Made by a program: the position numbers and the translations under genes. A stretch of 64,000 nt of DNA, taken from NCBI RefSeq assembly GCF_900291975.1, contig NZ_OMPN01000001.1:1240001-1304000 (forward strand), given 5' to 3'. The notes under the pieces were generated by a model that searched no databases, was not told where the DNA came from, and worked only from the letters and a program-made list of their open reading frames with translations. Positions 22,345 through 37,134 of this stretch are shown piece by piece. This stretch comes from Agathobaculum massiliense. GTDB taxonomy: Bacteria > Bacillota > Clostridia > Oscillospirales > Butyricicoccaceae. Each line of letters opens with the position of its first letter. Positions within the stretch are counted from its first letter, which is position 1.

Positions 22345-22349
22345 ATACC

Positions 22350-23237
22350 TTACTCCTCTTTATCAGATATACCCATATTCATGGCAAGGCGGTGCAAATG
22401 GATGGTCAGGAAGGTCATCTCCTCCGGCGGCAGCCGGATGGAGAACGCCTGCGCCAAATCATCTCGGATGCGCTCGGCGCACTGGTAGTCATACCGGTAG
22501 CGCCGGACGATCATGGACTGGAACTCGGAATCATTATCTTGTGCATACTGGCCCTGTGTAATGCGCTGTCCCAGAAATTTGAGGTGGGTGATGAACCGCC
22601 CGTAATCCAGGGATTGGTCGTCCAGCGCAACGCCATAATACGCCTGCACCTCTGCGACAATGCGGCTGATGAGCTCGGTGATGCGGACCATGTCGGCCAT
22701 ACGCCCGTCGATCTCCGCGTTGACGATATGAAGCGCGATGAATCCTGCCTCATCCTTGGAAAGGCGGTAACCGAGCCGCCGCTCGATGATATCGAGCGCT
22801 TGAATCCCCATGGCGAACTCGGTGGGGTAGAAGTTTGTGATCTCCCACAGCAGTTGATTGGAATACGCCGTGCCGGTGCGCAGGCGCTCCACCGCAAAGC
22901 AGATGTGATCGGTCAGGGTGATATAAATATTTTCGCTCAGCCGCCGTCCAGTCATCCTTTTCGCTTCCTCTATGATCTCCGTGCTGACATCCAGAAATTC
23001 CGCCGGCACGTCGCCGAGCAGCTCCATCAGGCGGGAGGATTTCTCCGGATCGCGCAGGTCGTAGATCTTCTCCACCTTACACGCGGGTACAAGGTCGCCC
23101 GACTGCTTTTTGAAGCCGATCCCCAAGCCGCGCAGGATAACCTCGCGTCCATCAGGGTCAATGATACATACAAAATTGTTGCCAATGACGCGGCTGATCC
23201 GGTAGGCCTCCTGCCCGCCCAGCTCCGCCGAGGTCAT
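22350..23237 (-). CDS. BglG/LicT/GlcT-family transcriptional antiterminator
   Basis: The 295-residue protein has an N-terminal co-antiterminator RNA-binding domain (about residues 12-65; YRISRVIGNNFVCIID) followed by PRD1 (about 75-175) and PRD2 (about 185-290), with histidines in TDHICFAVERL, IALHIVNAE and LTIHLHRL as phosphorylation sites. It should bind the RAT hairpin at 23589-23618 upstream of ptsH and prevent termination when its PRDs are in the active phosphorylation state. Its ATG overlaps the HPr stop codon (ATGA), so translation is coupled. Confidence 0.92.
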   Translation of the reverse strand: MTSAELGGQEAYRISRVIGNNFVCIIDPDGREVILRGLGIGFKKQSGDLVPACKVEKIYDLRDPEKSSRLMELLGDVPAEFLDVSTEIIEEAKRMTGRRLSENIYITLTDHICFAVERLRTGTAYSNQLLWEITNFYPTEFAMGIQALDIIERRLGYRLSKDEAGFIALHIVNAEIDGRMADMVRITELISRIVAEVQAYYGVALDDQSLDYGRFITHLKFLGQRITQGQYAQDNDSEFQSMIVRRYRYDYQCAERIRDDLAQAFSIRLPPEEMTFLTIHLHRLAMNMGISDKEE

Positions 23238-23491
23238 AGCGTCTCCCGAAAGAACGCCTGAAGTTGCTGCGCCGCAGCCTCCTCGTCCGGTCCCTCCATG
23301 GTAACGGTGACCACGCTGCCATGCCGGATGCCCATTCCCATCACGCTCATCAGGCGGGTAGCCTCGGTCTGCTTCCCGTTATACTCCACCATGACCTTGC
23401 TCTGGAACGCCTTCGCGGTCTTAACCAGCTGTCCTGCCGGACGAGCGTGGATACCAATGGGATCGGTGATCTCATACTGAAATGTTTTCAT
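23234..23491 (-). CDS. ptsH: HPr-family phosphocarrier protein lacking Ser46
   Basis: This 85-residue phosphocarrier accepts phosphate from enzyme I on His15 (GIHARPAG) and passes it to EIIA. Alignment by eye with B. subtilis HPr pairs its KSIMGVMSLGI with TRLMSVMGMGI here, so the regulatory Ser46 is Arg46. HPr kinase could not phosphorylate it there, and the P-Ser-HPr/CcpA branch of catabolite repression should not operate through this copy. The ATG at 23491 follows AAGGGGAG; a longer in-frame start adds six unlikely residues. It is first in the ptsH-antiterminator-EIICBA operon. Confidence 0.9.
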   Translation of the reverse strand: MKTFQYEITDPIGIHARPAGQLVKTAKAFQSKVMVEYNGKQTEATRLMSVMGMGIRHGSVVTVTMEGPDEEAAAQQLQAFFRETL

Positions 23492-23542
23492 AGTGCAACT
23501 CCCCTTCATCTTCTGAATCTGAACCGTGCTGTTAAAACAAAA

Positions 23543-23594
23543 AAGACCAAACGCCCGAATACGGATAATATTTCCCGTTCGGTTGTTTGGTCTT
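23543..23594 (-). terminator. Conditional terminator in the ptsH leader
   Basis: Arms AAGACCAAAC (reverse strand 23594-23585) and GTTTGGTCTT (23552-23543) enclose a smaller CCGAA/TTCGG stem and are followed by TTTTTTG. The 5' arm overlaps the end of the RAT sequence, the classic mutually exclusive arrangement. Confidence 0.88.
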
Positions 23595-23618
23595 GCCTGC
23601 CATACCAGTCACAAGCCT
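23589..23618 (-). promoter_or_regulatory. RAT (ribonucleic antiterminator) site for the LicT-type protein
   Basis: On the reverse strand the 30-nt element reads AGGCTTGTGACTG, six bases, then GCAGGCAAGACC. The SacY/LicT consensus is AGGATTGTTACTG-N6-GCAGGCAAAACC, so 22 of 25 conserved positions match with the right spacing. It overlaps the terminator by a few bases. Confidence 0.9.
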
Positions 23619-23636
23619 GTATGATTTTCTGATGGA

Positions 23637-23666
23637 AGCATACTATAACTGCGGCGCTTTTGTCAA
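23637..23666 (-). promoter_or_regulatory. Promoter of the ptsH operon
   Basis: -35 TTGACA (23661-23666) and TATGCT -10 (23637-23642), 18-bp spacer, just upstream of the RAT. The rest of the gap to 23843 shows nothing distinctive. Confidence 0.65.
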
Positions 23667-23843
23667 TAGCTTTGCTCGGAAAGCCGGTAAAACTGTAAGT
23701 TTGTCCAACCAGAAGCGTGTCGTTTTGTTCACAATACCAATATTATGTTGCATGTACTTCCACAAAGGTTATAATGTCCTCTATCATTGCAAAGGCATCC
23801 GCCCTCCGCTCCTACAGGCGTTGGCATTGGTGCCGCCGCGCGC

Positions 23844-24959
23844 TCACAGCTTCATGTCCCCATCCTTGACCCAGCCGAGACGGCGTACCGCCAGGTTGAT
23901 CAGCGGACACAGCACCGCTGGCAGAAGGAACGATACCAGCAGCAGCCCAACCCAGTCCTGCGCCGTAACGGCGGCCTTGGTTCCGGCCGCGATATCGTTC
24001 ATCCAGCCGGTATAAACCCCGATCTGGCCGACCAGTCCACACGTCCCCATGCCCGAGGAAACCGGCGTACCATTCATCTGCAAACCAAATACACAGGTCG
24101 CAATCGGTCCGGTGATGGCCGAGGTCAGGATAGGCGCGATCCAGATGCGCGGGTTCTTGACAATGTTGCCCATCTGAAGCATGGAGGTGCCGATCCCCTG
24201 AGACACCAGCCCGCCCCAGCGGTTCTCCTTGAACGACATGACCGCAAAGCCGACCATCTGCGCGCAGCAGCCCGCCACCGCCGCGCCGCCCGCCAGACCG
24301 GTCAGACCGAGCGCCGCGCAGATCGCGGCGGAGGAAATGGGCAGCGTCAGCGCCACGCCCACCAGCACGGACACCGCAATCCCCATCAGGAACGGCTGCA
24401 GATTGGTTGCCCACATAATCAGGCTGCCGACCTGCATCGCCGCCGCTCCCAGCGCGGGCGCCCACCAGGCGGACAGCGCAATGCCCGCGCCGATCGTGAC
24501 CAGCGGGGTGACCAGGATGTCCACCTTGGTCTCACCCGCGACCGCCTTGCCCAGCTCGGCGGCGATGACCGCCACAAACAGCACGGCGAGCGGCCCGCCC
24601 GCGCCGCCCAGCGCGTTGGACGCAAAGCCGACCGTAATCAGCGAAAACAGCACGAGCGGCGGGCAGCGCAGCGCATAGCCGATCGCCACCGCCATCGCCG
24701 GCCCGCTCATCGCGGAGGCCAGGCCGCCCACTGTGTAGGATACGTCGCTCACCGTCGCGACCGGCATGGTCAGAAACGGGATGCCGAACTGTGCACCTAC
24801 CGTATCGATGATTGTCCCAATCAGCAGCGAGCAGAACAGCCCCTGCGCCATTGCCCCCAGCGCGTCGATCCCGTACCGCCGGACCGAGATTACAATGTCC
24901 TTGCGTTTGAGAAACGCCTTTACCTTTTCCGTAGTTATCCCCTCCCAACACAGCCGCAC
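23844..24959 (-). CDS. PfoR-like PTS_EIIC_2 family membrane protein
   Basis: A very hydrophobic protein with about ten helices, Gly/Ala-rich, related to the PTS EIIC-like PfoR family (VSYTVGGLASAMSGPAMAVAIG, read as VSYTVGGLASAM and SGPAMAVAIGYAL; NGTPVSSGMGTCGLVGQIG). The function of the family is uncertain; PfoR was named as a regulator of perfringolysin, but members are probably transporters. The start is unclear. The GTG at 24959 is the only standard in-frame codon after the predicted promoter, but a good GGGAGGGG site lies further downstream with no standard start after it. Not part of the neighbouring operons. Confidence 0.75.
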   Translation of the reverse strand: MRLCWEGITTEKVKAFLKRKDIVISVRRYGIDALGAMAQGLFCSLLIGTIIDTVGAQFGIPFLTMPVATVSDVSYTVGGLASAMSGPAMAVAIGYALRCPPLVLFSLITVGFASNALGGAGGPLAVLFVAVIAAELGKAVAGETKVDILVTPLVTIGAGIALSAWWAPALGAAAMQVGSLIMWATNLQPFLMGIAVSVLVGVALTLPISSAAICAALGLTGLAGGAAVAGCCAQMVGFAVMSFKENRWGGLVSQGIGTSMLQMGNIVKNPRIWIAPILTSAITGPIATCVFGLQMNGTPVSSGMGTCGLVGQIGVYTGWMNDIAAGTKAAVTAQDWVGLLLVSFLLPAVLCPLINLAVRRLGWVKDGDMKL

Positions 24960-24977
24960 GGCGGCTACACTGCTGCT

Positions 24978-24986
24978 ATTATAGCA
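24978..24986 (-). promoter_or_regulatory. Extended -10 promoter of the PfoR-like gene
   Basis: TGCTATAAT on the reverse strand is an extended -10 element. No -35 is visible. It rules out start codons upstream of about 24970. Confidence 0.5.
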
Positions 24987-25044
24987 CACCTGACGGCGGC
25001 GCGGCGCTGTTTTTGTATTTTTTTGCGGCACCGTGTTCCTCCGC

Positions 25045-25093: not shown

Positions 25094-26134
25094 TCAGTCT
25101 GAGACTTTAATCAGGGTCTTGATGACTTCCTGCGCATGGGTGATCGTATACTGGAAAGCCTCGTCCGCCTGCTCAAACGGGAATTCCTTCGGCTCGATCG
25201 CCTTGAGGTCGATATAGCCCTTTTCGACCGCCTCGATTGCGAGTGGATAAATATTACGGTAGCGGAACACCGTGCGGATCTCCACTTCCTTGCGGGATAT
25301 CTCCAAAAAATTATAGCTGACATCCTGTGCAATGTTGCCCACCACAACGATCACGCCGCCGCTTTTGACATACCGGCCGGTCTGCGACATTGTCACCGGC
25401 GAGCCCGCCGTTTCAAAGACCACGTCGCAGCCCTTGCCGCCCGTCGCCTGCAATACGGCCTCGGTCACATCCACCTCTTTGGGGTTGGCCGTGACCGTCG
25501 CGCCCAGACGCTTCGCGCTCTCCAGCCGGTGCCCCACCAAGTCGGACACGATGATCTCGGTCGCGCCCATGGCCTTGCAGGCCAGCAGCGTCATAATGCC
25601 GATGGTACCCGAGCCCAGGATGCAGACGCTCTTCCCCAGCCCAACGCCGCCGCGCCTGGCCGCATGCATGCCGACCGCGAGCGGCTCCAGCATGGCGCCC
25701 TCCTGCATGGTCATATCGTCCGGCAGCTTGAAGCACATTTTGGCCGGAAAGGCCATGAACTTACGCAGCGCGCCGTCATACGGCGGCGCCGCGAGGAAAT
25801 GCACATCCGGACAGAGGTTGTATTTTCCTGTCAGGCAAAGCTCGCACTTGCCACAGGGTACGCCCGGCTCGAGCGCCACACGATCGCCGGGCTGCAGAGC
25901 AGTCACATCCGCGCCGCATTCGGTCACATATCCCGACACCTCATGCCCCAGGATAAACGGCAGCGGCGCCACCTTTTTCCCGATGCGGCCCTCCTTGTAA
26001 AAATGCGCGTCCGAACCGCAGATGCCGCAGTACTCCATCCGGACGACTACCTCGTCCGCGCCCGCCGCCGGCATTGGGCAGTCGGCCAGCTCAATGCGGC
26101 CCACCGCGGTCATATGCGCTTTTCTGTTTTTCAA
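25094..26134 (-). CDS. Zinc-dependent polyol/sorbitol-type dehydrogenase
   Basis: A medium-chain dehydrogenase of 346 residues that probably oxidises a polyol to a ketose with NAD. Catalytic zinc ligands are in CGICGSD and GHE, and the structural zinc site is the Cys cluster CGKCELCLTGKYNLC. The Rossmann fold (about 165-190) contains LGSGTIGIMTLLACKAMGA. It is the last gene of the operon, 10 bp after the transketolase C-terminal subunit. In a sulfo-TK-like scheme it could feed a sugar-like sulfonate into the isomerase/transketolase steps; a plain sorbitol or xylitol role is the alternative. Confidence 0.88.
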   Translation of the reverse strand: MKNRKAHMTAVGRIELADCPMPAAGADEVVVRMEYCGICGSDAHFYKEGRIGKKVAPLPFILGHEVSGYVTECGADVTALQPGDRVALEPGVPCGKCELCLTGKYNLCPDVHFLAAPPYDGALRKFMAFPAKMCFKLPDDMTMQEGAMLEPLAVGMHAARRGGVGLGKSVCILGSGTIGIMTLLACKAMGATEIIVSDLVGHRLESAKRLGATVTANPKEVDVTEAVLQATGGKGCDVVFETAGSPVTMSQTGRYVKSGGVIVVVGNIAQDVSYNFLEISRKEVEIRTVFRYRNIYPLAIEAVEKGYIDLKAIEPKEFPFEQADEAFQYTITHAQEVIKTLIKVSD

Positions 26135-26144
26135 TGCCGTTCCC

Positions 26145-27110
26145 TCACTTTCGCGCGATCGCCTTTTTCGCCTTTTCGCAGATCGCCTGCGCCGTCAGGC
26201 CGAAACGCTCCTGTAGGTAATCCACCGGACCGACTTCGCCGAACTCGTCCTGCACGCCGACCTTTTCCAGCGGTGCCCAGCAGGCCGATGCAAGCACATC
26301 CGCGACCGCGCTCCCCAGGCCGTTGATGACGTTGTGGTTTTCCGCAGTCACGACCGCGCCGGTCTCCTGCGCCGCACGGATGACTGCCGTCTCGTCCAGC
26401 GGCTTTACGCAAAACATATCCAGCACGCGCGCCTGTATCCCCTCTTTTTCCAGCAGCTCGGCCGCTTTGAGCGCCTCGGCCACACAGAAGCCCATCGCGA
26501 TGATCGTCACGTCCTTGCCATCGCGCAGCAGGTTGGCTTTGCCAACCTCGAACGTCGTACCCGCCTCGTAAATCGCGGGCGCGGTCTTGCGGTGCAGGCG
26601 GATATACCAGACGCCGTACGCCTCCTTTGCCATGCGCACGATCTCGCGTACCGCGACCGCGTCCGCAGGCTCCACGACCGTGATCTCCGGAATGCTGCGC
26701 ATGATCGCGATGTCCTCAAACGGCATGTGGGTGCCGCCGTTGAGCGCGGTCGTGATGCCGGGGTCGGAGCCGACGATCTTGACATTCTGCTTGGCATAGG
26801 CACAGGAGACAAAGATCTGGTCGCAGGCGCGGCGCGCCGCAAAGGGCGCGAACGTATGGGTAAACGGGATCTGTCCGGTCGCGGACAGGCCCGCCGCCAC
26901 GCCGAGCATGTTGGCCTCCTGTACGCCGCAGTCAAACGTATTTTCCGGAAACGCGGCCGCAAACGGCTTGGTCGCGGAGGCGTTCATCAGGTCCGCATCC
27001 AGAACGCAGACGCGCTCGTCCTCCGCCGCCAGCTCCATCAGAGTGCTACAGTACACCTTACGCAGCTCGGTATCGCCGTGCTTGTGAAAATCAGCTACTA
27101 TTACGCCCAT
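26145..27110 (-). CDS. Transketolase, C-terminal subunit
   Basis: The pyrimidine-binding plus C-terminal domains of a split transketolase (321 residues). The catalytic Glu that activates thiamine diphosphate is in DCGVQEANMLGVAAGLS, followed by FTHTFAPFAARRACDQIFVS. It pairs with the N-terminal subunit encoded 14 bp upstream. Transketolases move a two-carbon ketol unit between sugars. In the sulfo-TK pathway a split enzyme (SqwGH) acts on sulfofructose and sulfoerythrulose; this pair sits beside the same kinds of partner enzymes. Confidence 0.92.
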   Translation of the reverse strand: MGVIVADFHKHGDTELRKVYCSTLMELAAEDERVCVLDADLMNASATKPFAAAFPENTFDCGVQEANMLGVAAGLSATGQIPFTHTFAPFAARRACDQIFVSCAYAKQNVKIVGSDPGITTALNGGTHMPFEDIAIMRSIPEITVVEPADAVAVREIVRMAKEAYGVWYIRLHRKTAPAIYEAGTTFEVGKANLLRDGKDVTIIAMGFCVAEALKAAELLEKEGIQARVLDMFCVKPLDETAVIRAAQETGAVVTAENHNVINGLGSAVADVLASACWAPLEKVGVQDEFGEVGPVDYLQERFGLTAQAICEKAKKAIARK

Positions 27111-27124
27111 GGCTCTCCCCTCCT

Positions 27125-27961
27125 TTACAGCGCCGCGAGCTGGCTGTCCAGCTCGGCCATGGCCTGATCCATCTGCTCCCTGGTAACCGGCATGTTGTGC
27201 GAGCCGACCTTGCCCTCGGCCAGCGAAACGCCCTTGCCCTTGACCGTGTTCAGCACGATCATGGAGGGCCGCTCGCCCTGCTGCTTGGCCTTATGGATGG
27301 CCTCGCTGATCTGCTCTACGTCGTGTCCGTCCACGCTCTGCGCGTACCAGCCGAACGCCTCGTATTTGCCCGCCAGATCGCCCAGCTCGCAGACCTCGCT
27401 GATCGTCCCGTCGATCTGGCACTTGTTGTAATCCGTAAACGCGATCAGGTGGGACAGCTTGTGCTGCGCCGCGAAAAGCGCGGCCTCCCATACCTGGCCC
27501 TCCTGGCTCTCGCCGTCGCCGATGATCAGGTAGGTGTAGTTATCCAACCCCTTTTTGCGGTTGCCGCAGGCGATGCCCACGGCCGAGCTGGTCCCCTGTC
27601 CCAGCGAGCCGGTCGTCATGTCGATGCCGGGCGTGCGGTTCATGTCGCAATGGCTGGGCAGGTTGGTACTCGGCTTGTTGAGCGTGAGCAACTCCTCTTT
27701 TGGGAAAAAGCCCTTCAGCGCCAGCGTGGCGTATACCGCCGGCCCCGCATGCCCCTTGGAGCAAACCAGCCAGTCCCGATCCTCCTTGTGCGGGTCGGCT
27801 GGATCGATGTTCATTTCCCCGCCGTACAGCACGGCCAGCACGTCGCAGATGGACAGCGCGCCGCCCACATGCCCAACGCCCAGCGTGCCGATCGCGCGCA
27901 TGGTCTCCTTTCGGATGGAAACGGCAAATTTCTGGAGGTCTTTTTTGGCCTGCATATCCAT
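27125..27961 (-). CDS. Transketolase, N-terminal subunit
   Basis: The thiamine-diphosphate-binding half of a split transketolase (278 residues). It contains GHVGGALSICDVLAVLY, KGHAGPAVYATLALKGFF, DMTTGSLGQGTSSAVG and the ThDP motif beginning GDGESQEGQVWEA. The usual GHPD motif reads SHCD (NLPSHCDMNRTPGID), a small change close to the substrate funnel. The ATG follows GAGGGG. It is co-transcribed with the C-terminal half and the RpiB-family gene. Confidence 0.93.
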   Translation of the reverse strand: MDMQAKKDLQKFAVSIRKETMRAIGTLGVGHVGGALSICDVLAVLYGGEMNIDPADPHKEDRDWLVCSKGHAGPAVYATLALKGFFPKEELLTLNKPSTNLPSHCDMNRTPGIDMTTGSLGQGTSSAVGIACGNRKKGLDNYTYLIIGDGESQEGQVWEAALFAAQHKLSHLIAFTDYNKCQIDGTISEVCELGDLAGKYEAFGWYAQSVDGHDVEQISEAIHKAKQQGERPSMIVLNTVKGKGVSLAEGKVGSHNMPVTREQMDQAMAELDSQLAAL

Positions 27962-27973
27962 ATTTTCCCCTCC

Positions 27974-28453
27974 TCAGTTGTGGTAGATGCCCTTTTCGAT
28001 GCCCTTGACTTCCTCGCGCGCCTTGGTCAGGAACTCCTGGCGCCACGGCTCCAGGTTCTCGGTGAACGCGGTGTTCAGGAATTTATCCACAATGGCGCAG
28101 CCCGCAAAGTCCGCGGTGATCCAGCCGCCCATGGTCAGGATGTTTGCGTCGTTGATGGCGCGACACTTTTCCGCCGCATAGGTATTCTCGCAGACCGCCG
28201 CGTAAACGCCCGGATATTTGTTCGCCACGATCGCCATGCCCATACCGGTGCCGCAGATCAGGATGCCCTTTTCATACTCCTTCCTGGAGATCTTTTCCGC
28301 GACCACGGGCGCCACCATGTAATACGGCTGGCCGTGCTCCATATCCTGCGTGCCGCAGTCCTCCACCTCATACCCAAGCTCAACCAGGTGCGCCTTAACC
28401 GCCTCCTTGAGCGGGAAGCCCGACTTATCCGAACCAATCACAATCTTTTTCAT
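27974..28453 (-). CDS. RpiB/LacAB-family sugar isomerase
   Basis: The 159-residue isomerase belongs to the family of ribose-5-phosphate isomerase B. It has the start GSDKSGFPLKEAVKAHL, the CGTGMGMAIVANK loop with active Cys, and ARAINDAN-like KCRAINDANILTMGGW. Family members interconvert aldose and ketose phosphates; SqwI, a family member, isomerises 4-deoxy-4-sulfoerythrose. The context without any kinase favours a substrate whose anionic group is not phosphate. The ATG at 28453 is chosen because GGGGAGG lies 8 bp upstream. Confidence 0.9.
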   Translation of the reverse strand: MKKIVIGSDKSGFPLKEAVKAHLVELGYEVEDCGTQDMEHGQPYYMVAPVVAEKISRKEYEKGILICGTGMGMAIVANKYPGVYAAVCENTYAAEKCRAINDANILTMGGWITADFAGCAIVDKFLNTAFTENLEPWRQEFLTKAREEVKGIEKGIYHN

Positions 28454-28473
28454 AGATATCCTCCCCTTCTTTA

Positions 28474-29595
28474 TCACAGGATGCCTTTCAGCAGTGCATA
28501 TACGGTTTGTTCATTCATTACTGCGGGCGTGAGCTGGATGATCGCCGCGCCCAAGCCGACCTTGGTGATATGCTCCAGGTTTTCCTCCCGCACGCCCAGC
28601 TGCCCCAGGCGGGTCGGCATGCCCATGGATTCCATCAGCGCCTCGACCGCGTCCGCGAGCGCGCCCGCATCCGCATAACCCAGGTAGGCGGACAGCGCCT
28701 GCAGCTTTTCCGCCGCCCCTTCCCTGCACAGGCGGATAAACGCCGGCAGGGTGATCGAGCAGGCGGTGCCGTGGCTGGCGTGGTACTCGGTGGTCAGCGG
28801 AAAGCTGAGCGCGTGGATGCCGGTCGTGCGCGTCTGGCTGAATGCCACGCCTGCGATCATGCTCGCCTTGATCATGGCGCCGCGCGCCTCGAGATCGTTC
28901 GGGTCGTCATACGCCCTCTTGATAAAGCGGAGGATGAGCTGCATCGCGCCCATCGCCAGCATATCGCACATGGGCTGGCTCTCCTTGTTCCAATACGCCT
29001 CGATCGCGTGGCAGAATGCGTCCATGCCGGTCGAAGCGGTCACGGCGGGCGGCAGCGAATAGGTCAGTTCCGGATCGATCACCGCATAATCCGCCCAGAA
29101 GCGGTCGGTAACGAGCGGCATTTTGATGCCGGCCTTTTTATTCGTGAACACGCCGACATTCGTGACCTCGCTACCCGTACCCGCGGTCGTGGGTACGCAG
29201 ATCAGCATGGTCTTGCGCTCGGAAAAGGTCTTGGTGCCGCCGCTGTAATAGTCGTAGATGCTGCCCTCATCCCGCGTCAGGCAGGCGACGATCTTGGCAA
29301 CGTCCATCGAGCTGCCGCCGCCCAGACCGATCACGCAGTCCGCTTTCAGCGCGCGCGCGGCCGCGGCCGCGGCATCCACGCTTTCGCACGACGGATTCGG
29401 CTCGATATCGCTGAAATAGCCGACGGTTTTGCCGATCAGGCTTTCGCCGATCCGCTGCGCCACGCCGTTCTGGTACAGGAACGGGTCGGAAATAATCAGC
29501 ACGTTTTCGCCCGCGATGTAAGACGCCATCTTTTGTGAGACCCCGTAATCAAACAGGATCTTGACCGGCATGTAATAATGAAACGCTTTTTCCAT
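28474..29595 (-). CDS. Iron-containing (group III) alcohol dehydrogenase
   Basis: The 373-residue NAD(P)-dependent dehydrogenase has the dinucleotide loop [23 protein letters not shown], and the metal ligands Asp and His in [14 protein letters not shown] plus [16 protein letters not shown]. Such enzymes reduce aldehydes to alcohols in fermentation. In sulfo-TK and taurine fermentation a relative (SqwF/SarD) reduces sulfoacetaldehyde to isethionate, disposing of electrons. Its place between the transporter and isomerase genes suits that role, but the substrate is inferred only. Confidence 0.9.
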
Positions 29596-29603
29596 TTTGA
29601 AAT

Positions 29604-30533
29604 TTACCCTCTTTCCTCAACAGGTTCCATGCTGCCCGTCTCGTTTTTGCGCTGCTCCAGCAGAATACCGAGCGCGCCAATCAGGATGACCGCCATGCCG
29701 CCAAGCTGCACCACGGTCAGCTTTTCCCCGAACGCGAAAAAGCAGATCAGCGACGCCACGACCGGCATGAACAGCAGAAACACCTTGACAAACCATACGG
29801 GGAACCGCCGCAGGTCGTAATAGTAAACAATGTAGACCAGCGTCTGCCCCACGCTGGCGAGCAGCAGCATCCAGCCATAATAGGGCGTGCGGATACAGTT
29901 CATGATCTCGCCCAGGCTGCCCGCCGCCGCGGATGCCGCGATAAAGCACAGCATACAGACGAAATTGTTGTAGTACGCCACCACGTTGTCGCACACGGGG
30001 TTGCGCTTGTCGTGCTGCGCGCTTTTGATTACAAACGCGTTGATCGACACAAAGAGCGCGCTAAGCAGATAGAACAGGTTGCCCAGGTTGAACAGCTCCA
30101 GATGGGCGGGGTTCAGCCCCATCGTGATGAACACGCCCAGCAGCATGACCACGATGCAGCACCACTGCTTCCAGCTCAGGCGCGTCTTGTAGATCACGGC
30201 GGAGATCACCGCCACCATCAGGATATCGCACTTGAGCAGCGCCGTACCCGTGCTGGCGCTGCCGAGCGACAGGCCCACGAACGCGGTCGCATCCAGCAGG
30301 AAGCCCAGCACGCCGATCGTCACCAGCTTAGGCCAGACAAAGCGCACCTGCAGCAGAAGCTTCAGTTCCCCGCGCAGCGCCATCAGCACGGTCAGGAACA
30401 CCATGACGATCAGGCGGATGTATACGCCCATTGAAAACACGGACATGCCCGCCACCGTCTGCTGGCTCGCCACATAATAGGTACCCCAAATCACGGCAAG
30501 AAGCAGTACGGGGAAGACCGGTCTTCCTTTCAT
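29604..30533 (-). CDS. DMT-superfamily (EamA) transporter
   Basis: A 309-residue membrane protein with about ten helices in two EamA repeats (start [21 protein letters not shown], i.e. [13 protein letters not shown]; second repeat [21 protein letters not shown]). DMT proteins export metabolites such as amino acids or act as permeases. Because the operon already contains a complete ABC importer, this one is a candidate exporter of an end product. It overlaps no gene, with 8-bp and 13-bp gaps on either side. Confidence 0.85.
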
Positions 30534-30546
30534 GTCGCCTCGCCCC

Positions 30547-31290
30547 TTACCACCATTTGATTTGGCTCGTTACATATTCGCGCAGGCGGATGAATTCCTC
30601 GCTCGCAATATCGCGCGGGCGGGGCAGTTCGATCTTCAGCTCTTCCTTGACCGTTGTCGGCTTCTGCGACAAAATCAGGCACTTGTTGGAGAGGTAGACC
30701 GCCTCCTCCACGTTGTGCGTGATGAAAATGACCGTGCTTCCGGTCGCCTGCCACAGCTTGATGACCTCGTCCTCCAGATAGTACCGCATTTTAATATCCA
30801 TCTGGCCGTACGGCTCATCCATCAGCAGCAGGTCGGGGTGTAGCGCGAAGCTGCGCCCGATGACAATGCGCTGCTCGGTCGAGGTACTCAGCTCATGCGG
30901 ATAGGCGTTGCGCGCCTTTTCCAGGCCGAGGATCTCCAGGATTTCATCCGTGCGCTGCTTGATCACCTTTTCCTCGACCTTTTTGGTTTCCAGCCCGAAG
31001 CGGATGTTCTGTTCAACCGTCAGCCACGGGAACGCGGACGGTTCCTGAAACACGAACGAGAGGTTGTGCTTCTGCGGGTCCGCCGGTTCGCCGTCGATCA
31101 GGATCTGCCCCTCGGTCGGCTCGATCAGCTTGACGAGTAGGTTGAGGAACGTCGTCTTGCCGCAGCCCGTCGGGCCGACAATGCAGACAAAGTCGCCCTT
31201 ATTGATATCGAACGAGATATTGTCCAGCACTTTCAGGTCGCCAAAACATTTTGTCAGGTTCCTGACCTTTACCTTTACTTGATCGCTCAT
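30547..31290 (-). CDS. ABC transporter ATPase (SsuB/TauB type) with degenerate signature motif
   Basis: A 247-residue nucleotide-binding subunit. Walker A GPTGCGKT (39-46), Q-loop FQEPSAFPWL, Walker B LLLMDEP and the switch His192 (ITHN) are intact. The LSGGQ signature is LSTST (134-138). Its partner at 31308 has a good signature but lacks the switch His. Together they could form one complete and one degenerate ATP site. ATG 31290 follows GGGAGGTG. It belongs to the nitrate/sulfonate/taurine importer family. Confidence 0.92.
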   Translation of the reverse strand: MSDQVKVKVRNLTKCFGDLKVLDNISFDINKGDFVCIVGPTGCGKTTFLNLLVKLIEPTEGQILIDGEPADPQKHNLSFVFQEPSAFPWLTVEQNIRFGLETKKVEEKVIKQRTDEILEILGLEKARNAYPHELSTSTEQRIVIGRSFALHPDLLLMDEPYGQMDIKMRYYLEDEVIKLWQATGSTVIFITHNVEEAVYLSNKCLILSQKPTTVKEELKIELPRPRDIASEEFIRLREYVTSQIKWW

Positions 31291-31307
31291 ACGGACACCT
31301 CCCTGCG

Positions 31308-32063
31308 TCACAGGCTCAGATCGGTATCCGCCACGATTTCGTTACGAAGCCGCAGGAATGCCTGATCGGTATAGTTTCTTGGTCTGGGCATTTCGGGTAT
31401 GTATTCCTTCTTCACGCTGGTCGGATGGCCGCCGAGCAGGATGATCCGGTCGCCCAGATAAATGGCCTCCTCCACGTTGTTGGTGACGAAGATGACCGTG
31501 CGCTTGTTCTTCTCCCAGATCTTGAGAATCTCGTCCTCCATGGAATAACGGGTCTGCGCGTCCAGCGCGCCGAACGGTTCGTCCATCAGCATAATGTCGG
31601 ACTCGCTGGCATAAGCGCGCGCGATGCCCACGCGCTGCTTCATGCCGCCGGAGAGCTGCTTGGGCAGCGCCTTTTCAAAGCCCTGCAGCCCGACCAGGTC
31701 GATATATTTCTGCGCGTTTGCCTGTCGGGTGGCCTTATCCACGCCCTTGAGCTTCTGGTTCATCTCTACGTTGCCCATGACCGATTTCCATGGGAAAAGC
31801 GCGTAGCGCTGGAACACCAGACCCAAGTCGCCCATTTTGGGCCGCCCGTCCGCAAATTCCACCGTACCCGAGGTCTGCTCGTCCAACTCGGCAAGGATGT
31901 TCAGCAGAACGGTTTTGCCGCATTGCCCCGGCCCCAGAATCACGAGGAATTCGTTTTCCTTCACCGTCAGGTTGATATCCTTCAAAACCTCTACCGAGTT
32001 CTTTTTGGAAGCGAATGTTTTGGAGAGGTTTTTGATCACAATTTTGTCTCTGAGAACTGCCAC
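31308..32063 (-). CDS. ABC transporter ATPase (SsuB/TauB type) with H-loop His replaced
   Basis: A 251-residue subunit with Walker A GPGQCGKT (44-51), signature LSGGMKQRV (137 on) and Walker B IMLMDEPF. The H-loop reads VTNN, with Asn195 where the switch His belongs. The GTG start at 32063 is preferred: AAGGAG lies 10 bp upstream and the product then begins at the conserved IVIKNLSKTF strand. The 5' end overlaps the upstream permease by 28 bp. A longer in-frame ORF reaching 32234 is a permease shadow. Confidence 0.9.
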   Translation of the reverse strand: MAVLRDKIVIKNLSKTFASKKNSVEVLKDINLTVKENEFLVILGPGQCGKTVLLNILAELDEQTSGTVEFADGRPKMGDLGLVFQRYALFPWKSVMGNVEMNQKLKGVDKATRQANAQKYIDLVGLQGFEKALPKQLSGGMKQRVGIARAYASESDIMLMDEPFGALDAQTRYSMEDEILKIWEKNKRTVIFVTNNVEEAIYLGDRIILLGGHPTSVKKEYIPEMPRPRNYTDQAFLRLRNEIVADTDLSL

Positions 32064-32812
32064 GGGCAAAGCACTCCTTCCATTTTCTGCAGTATCGTGG
32101 ACAGCAGGAAGCTTACCACGCCGATTGCCAGCATGCAGACGACGATCAACGCCGTGTCGCCGCTCTCCTGCCCGCGGACGATCAGGAAGCCGACGCCCTG
32201 CCGCGCCACGATCATTTCCGCCGCAACCACACACATCCAGCCGCTCGACAGCGCGGTGCGGATGCCGGCCAGGATAGCGGGGATGGTGGCCGGAAACGCC
32301 ACGTCAACCAAAAGCTGCTTACGGTTCGCGCCCAGAACCTTGCCCGCGCTGATCATCAGCGGGTCGATCGCACGGATGCCCGCGCTGGTGTTCAGCACGA
32401 TCGGCACGAACGAGCCGATGAATACGATCACCCATTTGGAAAGCTCGCCGATGCCGAACCACAGGATGATCACGGGGATCCATGCGATCGGCGGGATCGG
32501 GCGCAGCATTTCGAAAAGCGGCCCGAAAAGCGCGTTAAAGCCCTTGCTCCAGCCGATGCCGATGCCGAGCGCAACGCCCAGCACAACCGCAAAGAAGAAT
32601 GCGATCAGAACACGCTGCAGGCTGGCCCAGATATGCGCCGGCAGCGTTGCGTTAGCGATCGGGTCGGCCATGATCTGCAGGAATTTCTCCAGCGTTGCCG
32701 CCGGTGTCGGTACCATCGAGCCCTCCTGTCCGGAAAGGACCACCCAGAGGACAACGAAAATACCGATCGAGCAGACGGACAGCAGTATATTCACCCATTT
32801 GATATTTTTCAT
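32036..32812 (-). CDS. ABC transporter permease (SsuC/TauC family), second copy
   Basis: A 258-residue permease with about six helices and the family motif IPPIAWIPVIILWFGIGELSK, then the EAA loop GANRKQLLVDVAFPATIPAIL (here GANRKQLLVDVAFP). The start codon overlaps the stop of the preceding permease (TGATG), with GGAGG upstream. The two permeases differ clearly, so the membrane part is probably a heterodimer, matching the two different ATPases. Confidence 0.92.
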   Translation of the reverse strand: MKNIKWVNILLSVCSIGIFVVLWVVLSGQEGSMVPTPAATLEKFLQIMADPIANATLPAHIWASLQRVLIAFFFAVVLGVALGIGIGWSKGFNALFGPLFEMLRPIPPIAWIPVIILWFGIGELSKWVIVFIGSFVPIVLNTSAGIRAIDPLMISAGKVLGANRKQLLVDVAFPATIPAILAGIRTALSSGWMCVVAAEMIVARQGVGFLIVRGQESGDTALIVVCMLAIGVVSFLLSTILQKMEGVLCPWQFSETKL

Positions 32813-33591
32813 CACTTATACCTCCAGGGCGCAACCTTTTTCTCGCAGAGGCTGAGCAACCCGCTCATGATGGCGCCGGTGACGCCGATGACCGCCATGC
32901 CGACAATGATGATCTCCGGCCGGCTAAGCGAGCGGCCGATCTGGATCATATAGCCGAGGCCCTGCGTGGAGGCGAGCATTTCCGCCGCGACCAGCGTGGA
33001 CCAGGAGTTTCCGAGCGATATGCGTATGCCCGTGAACACCATGTTCATGGACGAGGGGATGCATACCTTTGTGAACACCTGCCATCGCGAGGCGCCGAAC
33101 GTTTTCGCCACGTTAATCAGCGTCTGGTTGGTCAGCTTGATGCCCAGGTACGAGTTAACCACGCATGGCACAAACGCTGATACAAATATGATGAATACCT
33201 TTGCGTTAAAGCCGATGCCCATGGTCAGGATAATGATCGGGATCCATGCGATCGGCGGGATCGGGCGAATGATCTCAAACAGCGGGGTGAACAGCGAATC
33301 CAGCACCTTATAGTATCCCATGAACAAGCCGAGCGGGATGCCGATGACAATCGCCAGCAGGAAGCCGCTCAAAGAAAGCTTGATGCTTGCCAGGAAATGC
33401 ACCGGAATGGTCGCGCCGTCCGGCTTCTTTTCGACCATTTTGGTGAACAGGGTTTCCAGTGCTGTGGAGGGCGCGCACAGCGTGCGCTCGGATACCAGGC
33501 CGAACCGGACGCTGCATTCCCATATGCCGAAAAACAGGACCAGGCCCAGTATGCTCAACAGCACCAGCTTGAGTTTTTTGTTTTGTTTCAT
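32812..33591 (-). CDS. ABC transporter permease (SsuC/TauC family), first copy
   Basis: A 259-residue inner-membrane permease with RPIPPIAWIPIIILTMGIG and the EAA loop TFGASRWQVFTKVCIPSSM. It forms the transmembrane path with the next gene's product. The ATG at 33591 has a GGTGG site; the longer in-frame start at 33663 lies in the intercistronic hairpin and is rejected. Confidence 0.92.
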   Translation of the reverse strand: MKQNKKLKLVLLSILGLVLFFGIWECSVRFGLVSERTLCAPSTALETLFTKMVEKKPDGATIPVHFLASIKLSLSGFLLAIVIGIPLGLFMGYYKVLDSLFTPLFEIIRPIPPIAWIPIIILTMGIGFNAKVFIIFVSAFVPCVVNSYLGIKLTNQTLINVAKTFGASRWQVFTKVCIPSSMNMVFTGIRISLGNSWSTLVAAEMLASTQGLGYMIQIGRSLSRPEIIIVGMAVIGVTGAIMSGLLSLCEKKVAPWRYK

Positions 33592-33624
33592 AATCCACCA
33601 GCCTGCCTCACTTGATGATTTACA

Positions 33625-33655
33625 AAAGGAGAGGGGCGGAGAGCCCCCCTCCTTT
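33625..33655 (-). repeat. Intercistronic hairpin after the solute-binding protein gene
   Basis: Stem AAAGGAGAGGGGC / GCCCCCCTCCTTT with one mismatch and a 5-nt loop, no T run of note on the reverse strand. Such stems protect the upstream mRNA and raise binding-protein levels. Confidence 0.6.
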
Positions 33656-33677
33656 GCCAACAAACGTGTTTGGGTTG

Positions 33678-34769
33678 TCAGTTCATCGTCTTGCCATGAC
33701 GCTCGGCAAGCTCTCGAATGAAGGTGTCGTCGATAAAGTTGTTTTCGATCAGGTACTGCTTATCGGATTCTTCGATCGAGCCGGTCTGCACGAAGAAGTC
33801 CATCAGGTTTTCCATCGTCGTATCGACATAGCGGGTTCCCTTTTCGCCGGAGAACCATTCGATCTCGTCGTCCAGCGTGGACAGCGGGCGCTTTTCTGCG
33901 CAGCGGGTGGCGATCTCCAGGGTCTGCTCCACACCGTTGTCCAGACCGATATCCATCATGTACTGTCCGTATGCGTCCAGATCGTCCGCGTACTTCTCAC
34001 AGATCTGATAATAGCAGTCCAGGAAGTCCAGAATCTCGTCATGCTTGGTCTCGATCGCTTCCTCAGAGGCGACGATAACGGTCGGCTGGTCCTCGCCGGT
34101 CGCCTTGCCGGAGGAAATGCAGACCCAGTCCTCGTTCTCCGCGTCGAAGCCCTGCGGGTCCCACAGGCAGACAATGTCAGCCTCGCCAGCCTTAAACGCC
34201 GTGTACGCTTGGGCAACGCCCATATCGATGATGCTGACGTCCTCGGTCGTCAGACCGAGCTTTTCCAGCGTTGCGACCAGAGTGAAGTGCGCCGAGGTAC
34301 CGAGCGGGCAGAGGATGGTCTTGCCGCGCCAGGTATCCGCATTGCCGTAGATCTCGTCATAGCCCGCGACCTGGCCCTGAATCTGCGCGATATCGCTGTC
34401 GCTTCTCGCCCAGATCGTGACCGCTTCCGTATCCGGCGAGCCGAAACCGATCACCTTGGCGCCGTAGGCAATGCCGCCGGTGATGGACGGGGGCGAACCG
34501 TAGCAGCCAACGTCCCATTCGCCCGCGCCGAGCGCTTCGTTCTGCACATTGCCGCCCGTGAACATAATCAGTTCCACATCCAGCCCCACGTCTTCAAACT
34601 GCCCTTCCTCCAGGCCGATGTAAGCGGGGAGTGTGTGCGAATAGGGCTGGCCGCTGACCGTCAGCGAACGGCTTCCGGAATCGCCGCCCGCAGCGTCGTC
34701 TCCGCCACCGCAGGCTGTCAGAGAAACTGCCATTGAGAGTGATAATGCCAATGCGATTAACCTTTTCAT
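33678..34769 (-). CDS. SsuA/TauA-type ABC solute-binding lipoprotein
   Basis: The 363-residue lipoprotein has signal peptide and lipobox LTAC (Cys about residue 20). The body has SsuA/NMT1-like features: GQPYSHTLPAYIGLEEGQF, DVGCYGSPPSITGG, GTSAHFTLVATLEKLGL and an aromatic-acidic pocket. Family members bind sulfonates, nitrate, taurine or heteroaromatics. It is the first gene of the 11-gene operon, after a promoter with a 27-bp palindrome. Sulfonate binding is inferred. Confidence 0.92.
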   Translation of the reverse strand: MKRLIALALSLSMAVSLTACGGGDDAAGGDSGSRSLTVSGQPYSHTLPAYIGLEEGQFEDVGLDVELIMFTGGNVQNEALGAGEWDVGCYGSPPSITGGIAYGAKVIGFGSPDTEAVTIWARSDSDIAQIQGQVAGYDEIYGNADTWRGKTILCPLGTSAHFTLVATLEKLGLTTEDVSIIDMGVAQAYTAFKAGEADIVCLWDPQGFDAENEDWVCISSGKATGEDQPTVIVASEEAIETKHDEILDFLDCYYQICEKYADDLDAYGQYMMDIGLDNGVEQTLEIATRCAEKRPLSTLDDEIEWFSGEKGTRYVDTTMENLMDFFVQTGSIEESDKQYLIENNFIDDTFIRELAERHGKTMN

Positions 34770-34804
34770 AGTGTCCTCCTTCTTCCTTCTCTACATTTCG
34801 TCTC

Positions 34805-34831
34805 AAATTAATTAATTGAATTAACTAATTT
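34805..34831. promoter_or_regulatory. 27-bp AT-rich palindrome, candidate ROK operator
   Basis: Arms AAATTAATTAATT (34805-34817) and AATTAACTAATTT (34819-34831) around a central G match at 12 of 13 positions. It covers about +4 to +30 of the reverse-strand operon, where a bound repressor would block transcription. The ROK regulator at 35926 is the obvious candidate. Confidence 0.65.
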
Positions 34832-34841
34832 GTATGCTCCT

Positions 34842-34870
34842 ATTATAGCGATTCTTTCCATTTGTGTCAA
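34842..34870 (-). promoter_or_regulatory. Promoter of the ABC/transketolase operon
   Basis: Perfect consensus on the reverse strand: -35 TTGACA (34865-34870), 17-bp spacer, -10 TATAAT (34842-34847). Confidence 0.88.
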
Positions 34871-34953
34871 TTTATCAAAAGCAATATATTTGTTTTTATC
34901 TTTTTGTATATACCGCACAATATTTCTATTTAATTTTCTGATTAGCTGCTATG

Positions 34954-34981
34954 TTGATTTTTTTAATTATATTGATATAAT
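34954..34981 (+). promoter_or_regulatory. Promoter of the SDR/ROK gene pair
   Basis: -35 TTGATT (34954-34959) and -10 TATAAT (34976-34981), 16-bp spacer. The -10 overlaps a TTATAT-TG-ATATAA dyad. Confidence 0.6.
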
Positions 34982-35011
34982 AAAATTAGAACAAAAAAGG
35001 AGTTGAATTTC

Positions 35012-35866
35012 ATGCTCACGCCCAACCCGTTCCCCCTGGACCTGGGCGGCCGCACCGCTGTTGTCACCGGCGCCGGCGGCATTATGTGCAGCCATTTCGC
35101 GGGCGCGCTCGCACAGGCGCATGCGACCGTGTGCTTGTTGGATATCAACCTGCCTGCGGCGCAGGCTGCGGCGGATGCGCTGACCGCAGCGGGGTATCGT
35201 GCATATGCCTATCGGGCCGACGTGCTGGACAAGGCGCAGCTCGAAAGCGTACACGCGCAGATTCTGGCCGCGCACGGCCCCTGCAGCATCCTGATTAACG
35301 GCGCGGGCGGCAACCATCCGGATGGAAATACGGAGGACGAATATTTTCGCCCCGAAGCGGTGGAGCCGGCGCTCAAAACCTTTTTTCAGCTTGACCTGAA
35401 CGGCTTCCGCCGGGTGTTCGACCTTAACTTTATCGGCACGGTGCTTCCCACCCAGATTTTTTCCGCCGACATGACCGGCCGCAAAGATAGCTGCATCGTC
35501 AACATCTCCTCCATGAACGCCATCCGGCCGCTGACCAAGCTGCCGGCCTACAGCGCGGCCAAATCCGCCGTTTCCAACTTCACGCAATGGCTGGCCGTCT
35601 ACTTCTCCAGGGCGGGCATTCGGGTCAACGCGATCGCCCCCGGTTTTTTTATCACCAACCAGAACCGCCCCAACCTGCTCCACGCAGATGGCTCGCTTAC
35701 CCCGCGCGCGGAAAAGATCCTGTCCGGCATACCGGCGGGCCGGTTCGGGGATATTTCTGAATTGACGGGCGCGCTGCTCTTCCTGCTCTCCCCGCAGGCG
35801 GCGGGATATGTGAATGGGGTCGTGCTGCCCGTGGACGGCGGCTTCAGCGCCTATGCCGGCGTATAA
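35012..35866 (+). CDS. SDR-family oxidoreductase, D-mannonate (UxuB-like) type
   Basis: A 284-residue short-chain dehydrogenase with the NAD motif VTGAGGIMCSHFA, the catalytic Ser in NISSMNAI and the YSAAK active-site Tyr/Lys. The INGAGGNHPDG motif marks the mannonate oxidoreductase (fructuronate reductase) SDR group known from Bacillus and Thermotoga. It may turn fructuronate into mannonate, linking with UxaE at 61567, or act on the substrate of the divergent operon. ATG 35012 is 9 bp after AAGGAG; TTG at 35003 would overlap it. Confidence 0.82.
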   Translation: MLTPNPFPLDLGGRTAVVTGAGGIMCSHFAGALAQAHATVCLLDINLPAAQAAADALTAAGYRAYAYRADVLDKAQLESVHAQILAAHGPCSILINGAGGNHPDGNTEDEYFRPEAVEPALKTFFQLDLNGFRRVFDLNFIGTVLPTQIFSADMTGRKDSCIVNISSMNAIRPLTKLPAYSAAKSAVSNFTQWLAVYFSRAGIRVNAIAPGFFITNQNRPNLLHADGSLTPRAEKILSGIPAGRFGDISELTGALLFLLSPQAAGYVNGVVLPVDGGFSAYAGV

Positions 35867-35925
35867 TCCCTGCCCTGCCGCATACGCGGCGTCGGAATTC
35901 TATCGATAGCTTAGGAGATTTGCTT

Positions 35926-37134
35926 ATGCGCCCTCTTGGAATCAACATGAGTAATGTAAAACAGGTCAATCGTTCCCATGTTTTGTGGCTTTTGCTGACG
36001 GAAGGCGCAATGTCGAGGACCGACCTGGCCAGCCGGCTCCGTCTCACGACCGCCACGCTGACCTCGATCTGCGGCGACTTCATCAGCCGCGGCATCATCA
36101 TCGAGGAGGGGAAAGAAGCCTCCTCTAGCCTAGGCCGCAAAAAAAGCCTGTTGTCCATCAACCAGACCTATAAATACGTTATTTCCGTCAATATCCACTA
36201 CACGGGCAGCACCATTGCCATCACCAACCTGATGGGGGAGCCGCTTGCGCTCGAGCACTTTGCGATCGACCCCGCGCTTGATGTGCCGGGCGCCTTTCAG
36301 GATATTGCCAACCGGATCGTACTGCTGCTTTGGAAAACCAAGCTCAAAAACAAGGATATCCTCGGCATCGGCGTGGACATCCTTGGTCCTGTCAACCACA
36401 ACGAAGGCATCGCCCTGCATCCTTTCCATGTTTTCCACGGACAGGAGGTGCCTATCCAGAAGATATTGGAGGAGCTGCTCCCGTTTCCAGTCTGTGTGGA
36501 AAGCAACGTCTGCTCGTTCCTGAACGCGGAAAACCTTTACGGCACGGCAAAATACACCGCCAATACCATGGTCGTGAAATGGGGGCCGGGCGTCGGCTCG
36601 GCGGCGTCGATCAACGGCGCGCTGTATAAGGGCGCTAATTACCAGTCCTCGGAGATCGGGCATACCTACTTTTACCGCGGCTCGACCACAGTTTGCCGCT
36701 GCGGCAAAACCGGCTGTCTGGAAACCGGTGTCCACTTAAACCAGATCACCGAAAAAATCCTCTCGCTGCAGGAAAGCTCTCCGGTTATCCGCGGCGCCCT
36801 GCTCGAATACGGCCAGCCGACTATCCATAACATCCGCAAATACCTTGCGCTGGACTGTCTGGAGCTGCGCAGCTATCTGACCACCTTGATCTATGACCTC
36901 TCCATCGGCATCAACAACGCCATCTCGGTTTTCGCGCCCAATAAGGTCATTTTGTTCGGCGAGATTTTCGAATGCCCCTTTGTGATGGAAACGTTCATCC
37001 AGCAGGTATCTAAAATCAACCCGTTTTTGTCCACGGACATTTTCGAGCAGAGTTCCCTCGCCCCCCGCAAGGAATTCATCGGCGGCGCCGCGACCGCGGT
37101 GCAGAGCTTTCTGCTGGAGCCCGGGGGCGCCTGA
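35926..37134 (+). CDS. ROK-family transcriptional repressor
   Basis: A 402-residue regulator: N-terminal winged helix (about 10-70; MSRTDLASRLRLTTATLTSIC, i.e. SRTDLASRLRLTTATL), then a ROK sugar-kinase-like fold. It has the zinc motif CRCGKTGCLE (about 242-251). The typical ROK glycine-rich loop reads GPGVGSAASING and SEIGHTY follows. ROK repressors release DNA on binding a sugar or derivative. It is co-transcribed with the SDR and divergent from the 11-gene operon. ATG 35926 follows AGGAG by 9 bp. Confidence 0.9.
   Translation: MRPLGINMSNVKQVNRSHVLWLLLTEGAMSRTDLASRLRLTTATLTSICGDFISRGIIIEEGKEASSSLGRKKSLLSINQTYKYVISVNIHYTGSTIAITNLMGEPLALEHFAIDPALDVPGAFQDIANRIVLLLWKTKLKNKDILGIGVDILGPVNHNEGIALHPFHVFHGQEVPIQKILEELLPFPVCVESNVCSFLNAENLYGTAKYTANTMVVKWGPGVGSAASINGALYKGANYQSSEIGHTYFYRGSTTVCRCGKTGCLETGVHLNQITEKILSLQESSPVIRGALLEYGQPTIHNIRKYLALDCLELRSYLTTLIYDLSIGINNAISVFAPNKVILFGEIFECPFVMETFIQQVSKINPFLSTDIFEQSSLAPRKEFIGGAATAVQSFLLEPGGA

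Follow-up and report, generated by a model that had tools for sequence, protein, structure and literature searches.

Which sulfonated compound enters an operon that resembles the sulfo-transketolase (sulfo-TK) pathway, and by which reaction it does so when the SqvD route is missing, is the question raised by 11 genes of Agathobaculum massiliense. These genes lie in a 64,000-nucleotide stretch of contig NZ_OMPN01000001.1 (positions 1,240,001 to 1,304,000, hereafter the window), in a 3.2-Mb genome (G000) whose genus is probably gut-dwelling. Our comparative analysis indicates that the operon is a sulfo-TK variant with a recurrent entry other than SqvD. Judged from its sequence, the core is very likely sulfo-TK-like, and the entry may be based on dehydrogenases, with a sulfo-hexitol as the entry compound, a reading to which we give a probability of roughly 0.4.

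Open reading frame and family calls place the 11 genes in one tight row on the minus strand, running from 34769 to 25094 of the window, in which neighbours are 8-20 nt apart or, in two cases, overlap, and 89 nt follow the binding-protein gene; given the short gaps and overlaps on a single strand, the row is likely one operon (Table 1). A first-pass annotation had described one operon with an importer, a split transketolase, an RpiB-family isomerase, an iron-type alcohol dehydrogenase (Fe-ADH), a DMT transporter, and a zinc dehydrogenase, and all these genes were confirmed. Its UxuB-like short-chain dehydrogenase/reductase (SDR) is also present, but stands outside the operon, on the plus strand, where it is paired with a ROK gene and diverges from the operon over an AT-rich gap of 242 bp. 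As that annotation had stated, neither a kinase, a glycosidase, nor a sulfoquinovose isomerase was seen among the 11 operon genes.

To place the isomerase, GTDB genomes were scanned with an alignment of RpiBs, and the best 80 of 254 relatives were kept as loci; together with the window and locus L143 they make up the 82 RpiB loci counted here, with L142, a locus without RpiB, outside the count. For the RpiB and transketolase trees, 21 loci of the Acholeplasma/Erysipelotrichaceae type were thinned out. In the tree of 81 RpiBs, all 61 rows from SqwI-type loci, including the window, formed one set (98/92) that held 0 of 14 ordinary RpiBs. The window protein fell in a set of 23 rows (98/97), of which 17 belong to loci that carry SqvD, SqvB, or YihQ; the others were three rows from loci without genes for sulfoquinovose (SQ) entry, L008, and the window gene, which is represented twice (the second copy being L118). 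Moreover, at 17 diagnostic columns, drawn from 14 ordinary and 41 sulfo-TK RpiBs (the paralogs L119, L123, L124, L125, and L131 being omitted, and the second copy of L099 being kept out of the sulfo-TK set), the window residue was always one found in the sulfo-TK set, although at two of these columns (I105 and I121) it is also usual in ordinary RpiBs. In the window protein, K, I, W, L, and E take the places of H10, H99, R110, R133, and H134 of Escherichia coli RpiB, some of which presumably act in phosphate binding or ring opening; H10, R110, R133, and H134 were each present in 14/14 ordinary RpiBs compared. The window gene is the sole PF02502 match in its genome. Since a separate RpiA is encoded elsewhere in the genome, and the window RpiB was found at E 1e-40 or better in just 5/99 genomes searched (its own included), a housekeeping role in the pentose-phosphate pathway was rejected.

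The sulfo-TK likeness claimed beforehand is thus borne out by an RpiB that falls in the SqwI set, and likewise by an Fe-ADH that keeps the pocket residues of TauF. The best PDB match of the Fe-ADH, which is of the SqwF family PF00465, was 6jko (BkTauF), at 267.8 bits, followed by a structure at 183.5 bits, and its best NCBIfam models were SarD (239.8 bits, the cutoff of 700 not being reached) and then PsrA (239.2 bits). It is 66-71% identical to the Fe-ADHs of the SqvD-bearing operons L033, L044, and L048. The window protein and BkTauF share the M-ADH family, the pocket residues F252, T257, and F265, and three of the four metal ligands (D192, H261, and H275); they differ in the fourth ligand, Gln196 in TauF and His in the window, and in that no taurine-degradation gene was noticed in the window operon. 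The BkTauF paper gives His as the common residue at this position, and presents the pocket as a proposal backed by mutants, with no sulfonate-bound structure (PMC6616044). Among 45 Fe-ADH rows compared, 40 had the window pattern and three carried F265Y, and two Fe-ADHs encoded elsewhere in the window genome differed more. The adjoining DMT transporter, a candidate isethionate exporter, had matches at 40-58% identity in 26/75 RpiB loci that lack the window's importer.

The C-terminal transketolase subunit belonged to a set of 10 (100/99) in which the nine others came from SqwI-type RpiB loci, 4/9 of them with SqvD, SqvB, or YihQ. The transketolases of F. jeddahensis, C. sporosphaeroides, and Faecalicatena stood elsewhere in the tree, and those of L044, L048, and L033 were not in the window clade. 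By its position in the tree, the window transketolase is of a second, uncharacterised clade, which partly accompanies SQ-entry genes. Elsewhere in the genome, outside the window (for example at loci L011-L019 and L021-L026), 12 frames of 316-378 codons matched the C subunit at 32-68%, and a frame of 670 codons did so at 26%; an N subunit adjoins each of seven C-subunit paralogs read out, and the L021 paralog (68%) has an ABC importer and zinc dehydrogenases as neighbours.

The operon shares its Fe-ADH, split transketolase, and RpiB-family isomerase with the sulfo-TK operons of Clostridium sp. MSTE9 (SqwFGHI) and with the transketolase/transaldolase variant of Faecalicatena. Compared with locus L033 of Faecalicatena contorta, identity was 70-71% for RpiB and Fe-ADH and 53-56% for the transketolase, and both loci have a DMT gene. 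The gene content of L033 is much like that of the SQ-induced Faecalicatena cluster (PMC11659671); the primary sulfo-TK papers, Liu 2021 and Chu 2023, are cited here through PMC9594981, PMC12890257, and PMC11659671. The window differs from these systems in its second-clade transketolase, its TauABC-type importer, its zinc polyol dehydrogenase, and the divergent UxuB-type SDR. It differs further in that the locus had no match to SqvD, SqvB, YihQ (searched in the window only), or a CUT1 sugar importer.

SqvB (DUF4867) is found in the majority of sulfo-TK clusters. In the window genome, neither SqvB nor the SqvD family model (NF048012) had a match, so that a hidden SqvD was rejected and the different entry proposed in the first-pass annotation is supported. 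For SqvD, the control genomes G104, G105, and G009 scored 411.5, 409.6, and 378.3 bits and a second type in G106 scored 203, all under the curated 700; SqvB had no match in G009 either. In Acetanaerobacterium elongatum and Anaerobacterium chartisolvens, no score exceeded 74 bits for SqvD or 21 for SqvB. Furthermore, the importer was present in 7/82 RpiB loci, of which 5/7 carried a zinc dehydrogenase, against 1/75 of the others (Fisher 4.5e-6, loci taken as independent). Conversely, SqvD (of either of two types), SqvB, or YihQ occurred in 1/7 importer loci against 61/75 others (Fisher 6.5e-4, under the same assumption), one of these 61, L045, resting on a sole 24% SqvD2 match. The two importer loci without zinc dehydrogenase (L054 and L103) reach a contig edge soon after RpiB, and the lone non-importer locus that has it (L051) begins at one. 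The order Fe-ADH, transketolase N, transketolase C, RpiB was repeated in many of the scanned loci.

The importer had been called SsuABC/TauABC-type; the family was right, and the operon encodes two permeases and two ATPases. It resembles those systems in the family and fold of its binding protein and in its permease and ATPase families, and it differs in its doubled permeases and ATPases, in its linkage to sulfosugar genes, and in scores below the SsuA/TauA cutoffs (98.8 against 163.5 bits for TIGR01728 and 32.4 against 304.25 for TIGR01729). An AlphaFold model of the binding protein (pLDDT 88.5, six sequences) had as top fold matches SsuA 2x26 (Z 29.7, 2.2 A, 283 aligned) and TauA 6ssy (Z 28.3), so the predicted fold fits a sulfonate ligand and is not decisive. 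Importer and SqwI-type gene recurred together in G009 (same genus), in A. elongatum and A. chartisolvens, and in the further Clostridia/Lachnospiraceae records L049, L054, and L103; therefore the operon is more than a chance assembly. ATPase 2 was 77-81% identical in L031, L049, L054, L102, L103, and L143 and 62% in L142. A TauABC label placed on the RpiB tree needed about as many changes as shuffled labels did: 7, where shuffling gave a mean of 7.8, with L118 and L129 labelled TauABC, and 6, where it gave 5.9, without L118 (the window copy) and L129 (the TauABC locus of G009), L008 (G037) carrying a wrong 'ordinary/paralog' label in both counts. In L100, L102, and L143 the importer, the exporter (DMT or TauE), and the end-step genes (Fe-ADH, or an aldehyde dehydrogenase with SqwKL-like genes) vary, as if such genes were exchanged between sulfo-TK operons.

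At E 1e-60 the importer was found in 2/394 genomes of the order, the window's and G288. In the latter (L142), the neighbours of an importer 41-62% identical to the window's are a zinc dehydrogenase, TauE, and a glycyl-radical enzyme scoring above the HpfG cutoff (1025.9 bits against 1000). Because it adjoins an HpfG-type enzyme, the importer family can be tied to a sulfonated diol. The window operon is like HpfG operons for 2,3-dihydroxypropane-1-sulfonate (DHPS) in its related TauABC importer and zinc dehydrogenase, which in G288 stand with TauE beside HpfG, and unlike them in that its own genes include no glycyl-radical enzyme. At L142 (513-9047), an activase-like radical SAM protein is encoded together with HpfG, TauE, the zinc dehydrogenase, and the TauABC-type importer, possibly as an operon for DHPS import and dehydration; no Fe-ADH match was seen there. 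Spread by plasmid was rejected, as among 226 plasmid records the top five listed matched the binding protein at 24-28% identity, and so was spread by phage, the viral scan having given no relative.

In the operon, the zinc dehydrogenase was closest, among solved structures, to 5vm2, human sorbitol dehydrogenase 1pl6, and ketose reductase 1e3j, and its best NCBIfam model was L-idonate 5-dehydrogenase, at 213.5 bits with the cutoff of 469 not reached. It is 69% identical to the A. elongatum copy, which is in the same operon, and 60% to that of L051. The SDR passes NF006132 (D-mannonate oxidoreductase; 387 bits, cutoff 281), and its best PDB match was 4wuv (310 bits), titled 2-hydroxycyclohexanecarboxyl-CoA dehydrogenase. 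Among nine loci with SDR relatives, uxuA adjoined in 6/9 and was missing in 3/9, and uxaC was present at L156 (by Pfam) and at L157 and L158 (by like sequence). Identity of 55-59% to the uxuA-adjoining relatives, together with the NF006132 score, makes the SDR like a UxuB-type D-mannonate oxidoreductase; the window copy differs in its divergence from a sulfo operon, its branch length, and the other partner of uxuA. In the window genome, the SDR is a single copy at E 1e-50, and the single uxuA adjoins a mannitol-dehydrogenase-type protein (PF01232/PF08125) able to serve as UxuB, which may leave the SDR available for a different function. D-Fructuronate has a carboxylate at C6 of fructose where 6-deoxy-6-sulfofructose (SF) has a sulfonate, and on that account the SDR may reduce SF or oxidise a sulfo-mannitol. 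A divergent ROK gene also adjoins the corresponding operon of A. elongatum (48% identity, upstream) and that of L054 (40%); no convincing copy of a shared operator motif was found in either.

In this context, we propose that the SsuA/TauA-type importer would take up a sulfonated polyol, for which a 6-deoxy-6-sulfo-hexitol is the likeliest candidate, and that the sorbitol-dehydrogenase-like enzyme would oxidise this compound at C2 to SF; the UxuB-type SDR may carry out the same oxidation on the manno epimer. The split transketolase would then transfer C1-C2 of SF to glyceraldehyde-3-phosphate, the SqwI-like isomerase would convert 4-sulfoerythrose to 4-sulfoerythrulose, and in a second transketolase turn the latter would yield sulfoacetaldehyde. 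The Fe-ADH would reduce sulfoacetaldehyde to isethionate, presumably with one NADH made at entry, the DMT protein may export the isethionate, and the ROK protein is probably a sulfo-sugar sensor that acts at the divergent promoter. In this scheme the substrates, including that at entry, and the direction in which the SDR works are all predictions. Still more tentatively, this may be a form of oxidative sulfoglycolysis, in which sulfo-hexitols, so far not recognised among natural sulfonates, enter as gluco and manno epimers that a sorbitol-dehydrogenase-like enzyme and a recruited UxuB-type SDR convert to SF, the NADH formed at entry is spent on reducing sulfoacetaldehyde, and the entry module has repeatedly become attached to sulfo-TK cores.

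A C6 sulfo-ketose is favoured since transaldolase-family genes occur in addition in both L031 and L049, the latter of which also has a PfkB kinase and a class II aldolase. In the pathways described in PMC9594981, transaldolase acts on SF, an aldolase of PF01116, the family of the L049 aldolase, acts on SF-1-phosphate, and the kinase of the SF-1-phosphate pathway is of PF00365. E. coli YihV belongs to the PfkB type; the L049 kinase was rejected as a YihV orthologue, with an identity of just 26%. In L049 (3675-11593), the PfkB kinase, class II aldolase, transketolase, and transaldolase-family gene stand together, and by gene content this operon possibly combines three SF-cleaving routes in one.

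Several observations weigh against the sulfo-hexitol entry or the core beneath it. The next set out on the transketolase tree consisted of four transketolases of the same genome, with role unassigned; because the clade is distinct and paralogs adjoin it, the presumed specificity of the window transketolase rests on context. Of the trees recommended at the outset, that of RpiB set it apart from ordinary enzymes, but that of the transketolase was less clear. Likewise, the structural model recommended for the binding protein did return SsuA and TauA, but bicarbonate-binding CmpA came close behind them (Z 27.4 against 29.7 and 28.3), too near for the fold to settle that a sulfonate is bound. The zinc dehydrogenases of L049, L102, L142, and L143 are 30-38% identical to the window's, so that they may have other substrates, and the radical enzyme of G288 is nearest to glycerol dehydratase among solved structures. 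The SDR is a long branch, the longest in its tree of 10, and was seen at no other TauABC locus, and may for this last reason be a local addition. In a literature search that was thin on subscription journals, no paper was found naming a sulfo-hexitol, and none was recognised as describing dehydrogenase entry to sulfo-TK. PF07221, the family of YihS, the isomerase of sulfo-EMP-type entry, matched 0/3 genomes (window, A. elongatum, and A. chartisolvens) with an E. coli control that was silent as well; 2/14 control genomes matched. This negative is weak because the K-12 YihS protein itself scores 466.6 bits to PF07221, and our confidence in dehydrogenase entry is slightly lowered by it. Finally, L143, of the same genus, pairs the same importer with SqvD, which makes SQ import possible.

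This last point speaks for a reading in which the importer takes up SQ freed by other microbes, an unrecognised isomerase converts it to SF, and the dehydrogenases have secondary roles, for instance in redox balance or in forming a sulfo-polyol by-product. SQ is the abundant sulfosugar, a YihS-type isomerase elsewhere in the genome or an unrelated isomerase could serve, and PMC13219744 reports sulfo-TK Caproiciproducens without YihQ and SqgA. We nevertheless consider this unlikely, as the SqvD and SqvB families have no match in the window genome and hardly score in A. elongatum and A. chartisolvens, and as the association of zinc dehydrogenase with importer would be left unexplained. Entry at C4, by a shorter sulfonated polyol such as a 4-deoxy-4-sulfo-tetritol oxidised to sulfoerythrulose or sulfoerythrose, seems improbable. 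Small sulfonates are the usual cargo of TauABC-type importers, the related G288 importer stands with HpfG, an enzyme for a C3 sulfo-diol, and no transaldolase match was found in the window operon; on the other hand, the isomerase, which SF entry explains, would be superfluous if a C4 ketose were the entry point, and the accessory genes of L031 and L049 fit a C6 ketose. That a non-sulfonate substrate, an unphosphorylated sugar acid or polyol, is handled by ordinary transketolase and isomerase chemistry is very improbable, for although the genome is rich in transketolase-like paralogs, the SDR is of the fructuronate reductase family, and the binding protein is under the SsuA/TauA cutoffs, the RpiB and the Fe-ADH both fall among sulfo-TK enzymes, whose residues they share, and the importer subfamily occurs both with SqvD and with HpfG.

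Table 1. Features of the putative sulfonate operon and of its divergent neighbours (window coordinates).
Feature	Coordinates	Strand	Basis
Substrate-binding protein, SsuA/TauA/NMT1 family	33678..34769	-	NMT1 Pfam; TIGR01728 98.8 bits
ABC permease A, TauC-like	32812..33591	-	PRK10160 TauC 174.2 bits, cutoff 342 not reached
ABC permease B, TauC-like	32036..32812	-	PRK10160 TauC 171.6 bits, cutoff 342 not reached
ABC ATPase 1	31308..32063	-	NCBIfam top SaoA and taurine ATPase, under cutoff; start from ribosome-binding site
ABC ATPase 2	30547..31290	-	NCBIfam top SaoA, under cutoff
DMT/EamA transporter, candidate isethionate exporter	29604..30533	-	EamA Pfam
Fe-ADH, SqwF/TauF-like putative sulfoacetaldehyde reductase	28474..29595	-	PDB 6jko match, pocket residues
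RpiB/LacAB-family isomerase, SqwI-like	27974..28453	-	Tree, diagnostic residues; PF02502
Split transketolase, N-terminal (thiamine diphosphate, ThDP) subunit	27125..27961	-	PF00456
Split transketolase, C-terminal subunit	26145..27110	-	PF02779/PF02780; tree
Zinc polyol dehydrogenase, sorbitol-dehydrogenase-like, TTG start	25094..26134	-	PDB and NCBIfam matches
Divergent intergenic region	34770..35011	.	242 bp, 25% GC; imperfect palindrome 34804-34832, candidate ROK operator
UxuB-type SDR (fructuronate reductase family), candidate 6-sulfofructose/sulfo-mannitol oxidoreductase	35012..35866	+	NF006132
ROK-family regulator	35926..37134	+	PF00480

Past the end of the operon, at 20230-25031, lies a phosphotransferase system (PTS) cluster with EIICBA and a PTS_EIIC_2 protein, and with a LicT-like antiterminator and an HPr-like protein recognised by eye; this cluster is probably unrelated to the sulfo operon.

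In brief, an operon of this kind would escape surveys keyed to YihQ or SqvD, and its proposed product, isethionate, feeds gut bacteria that form H2S. The entry genes of the window point to a pool of sulfonated polyols that is not named in the literature searched.

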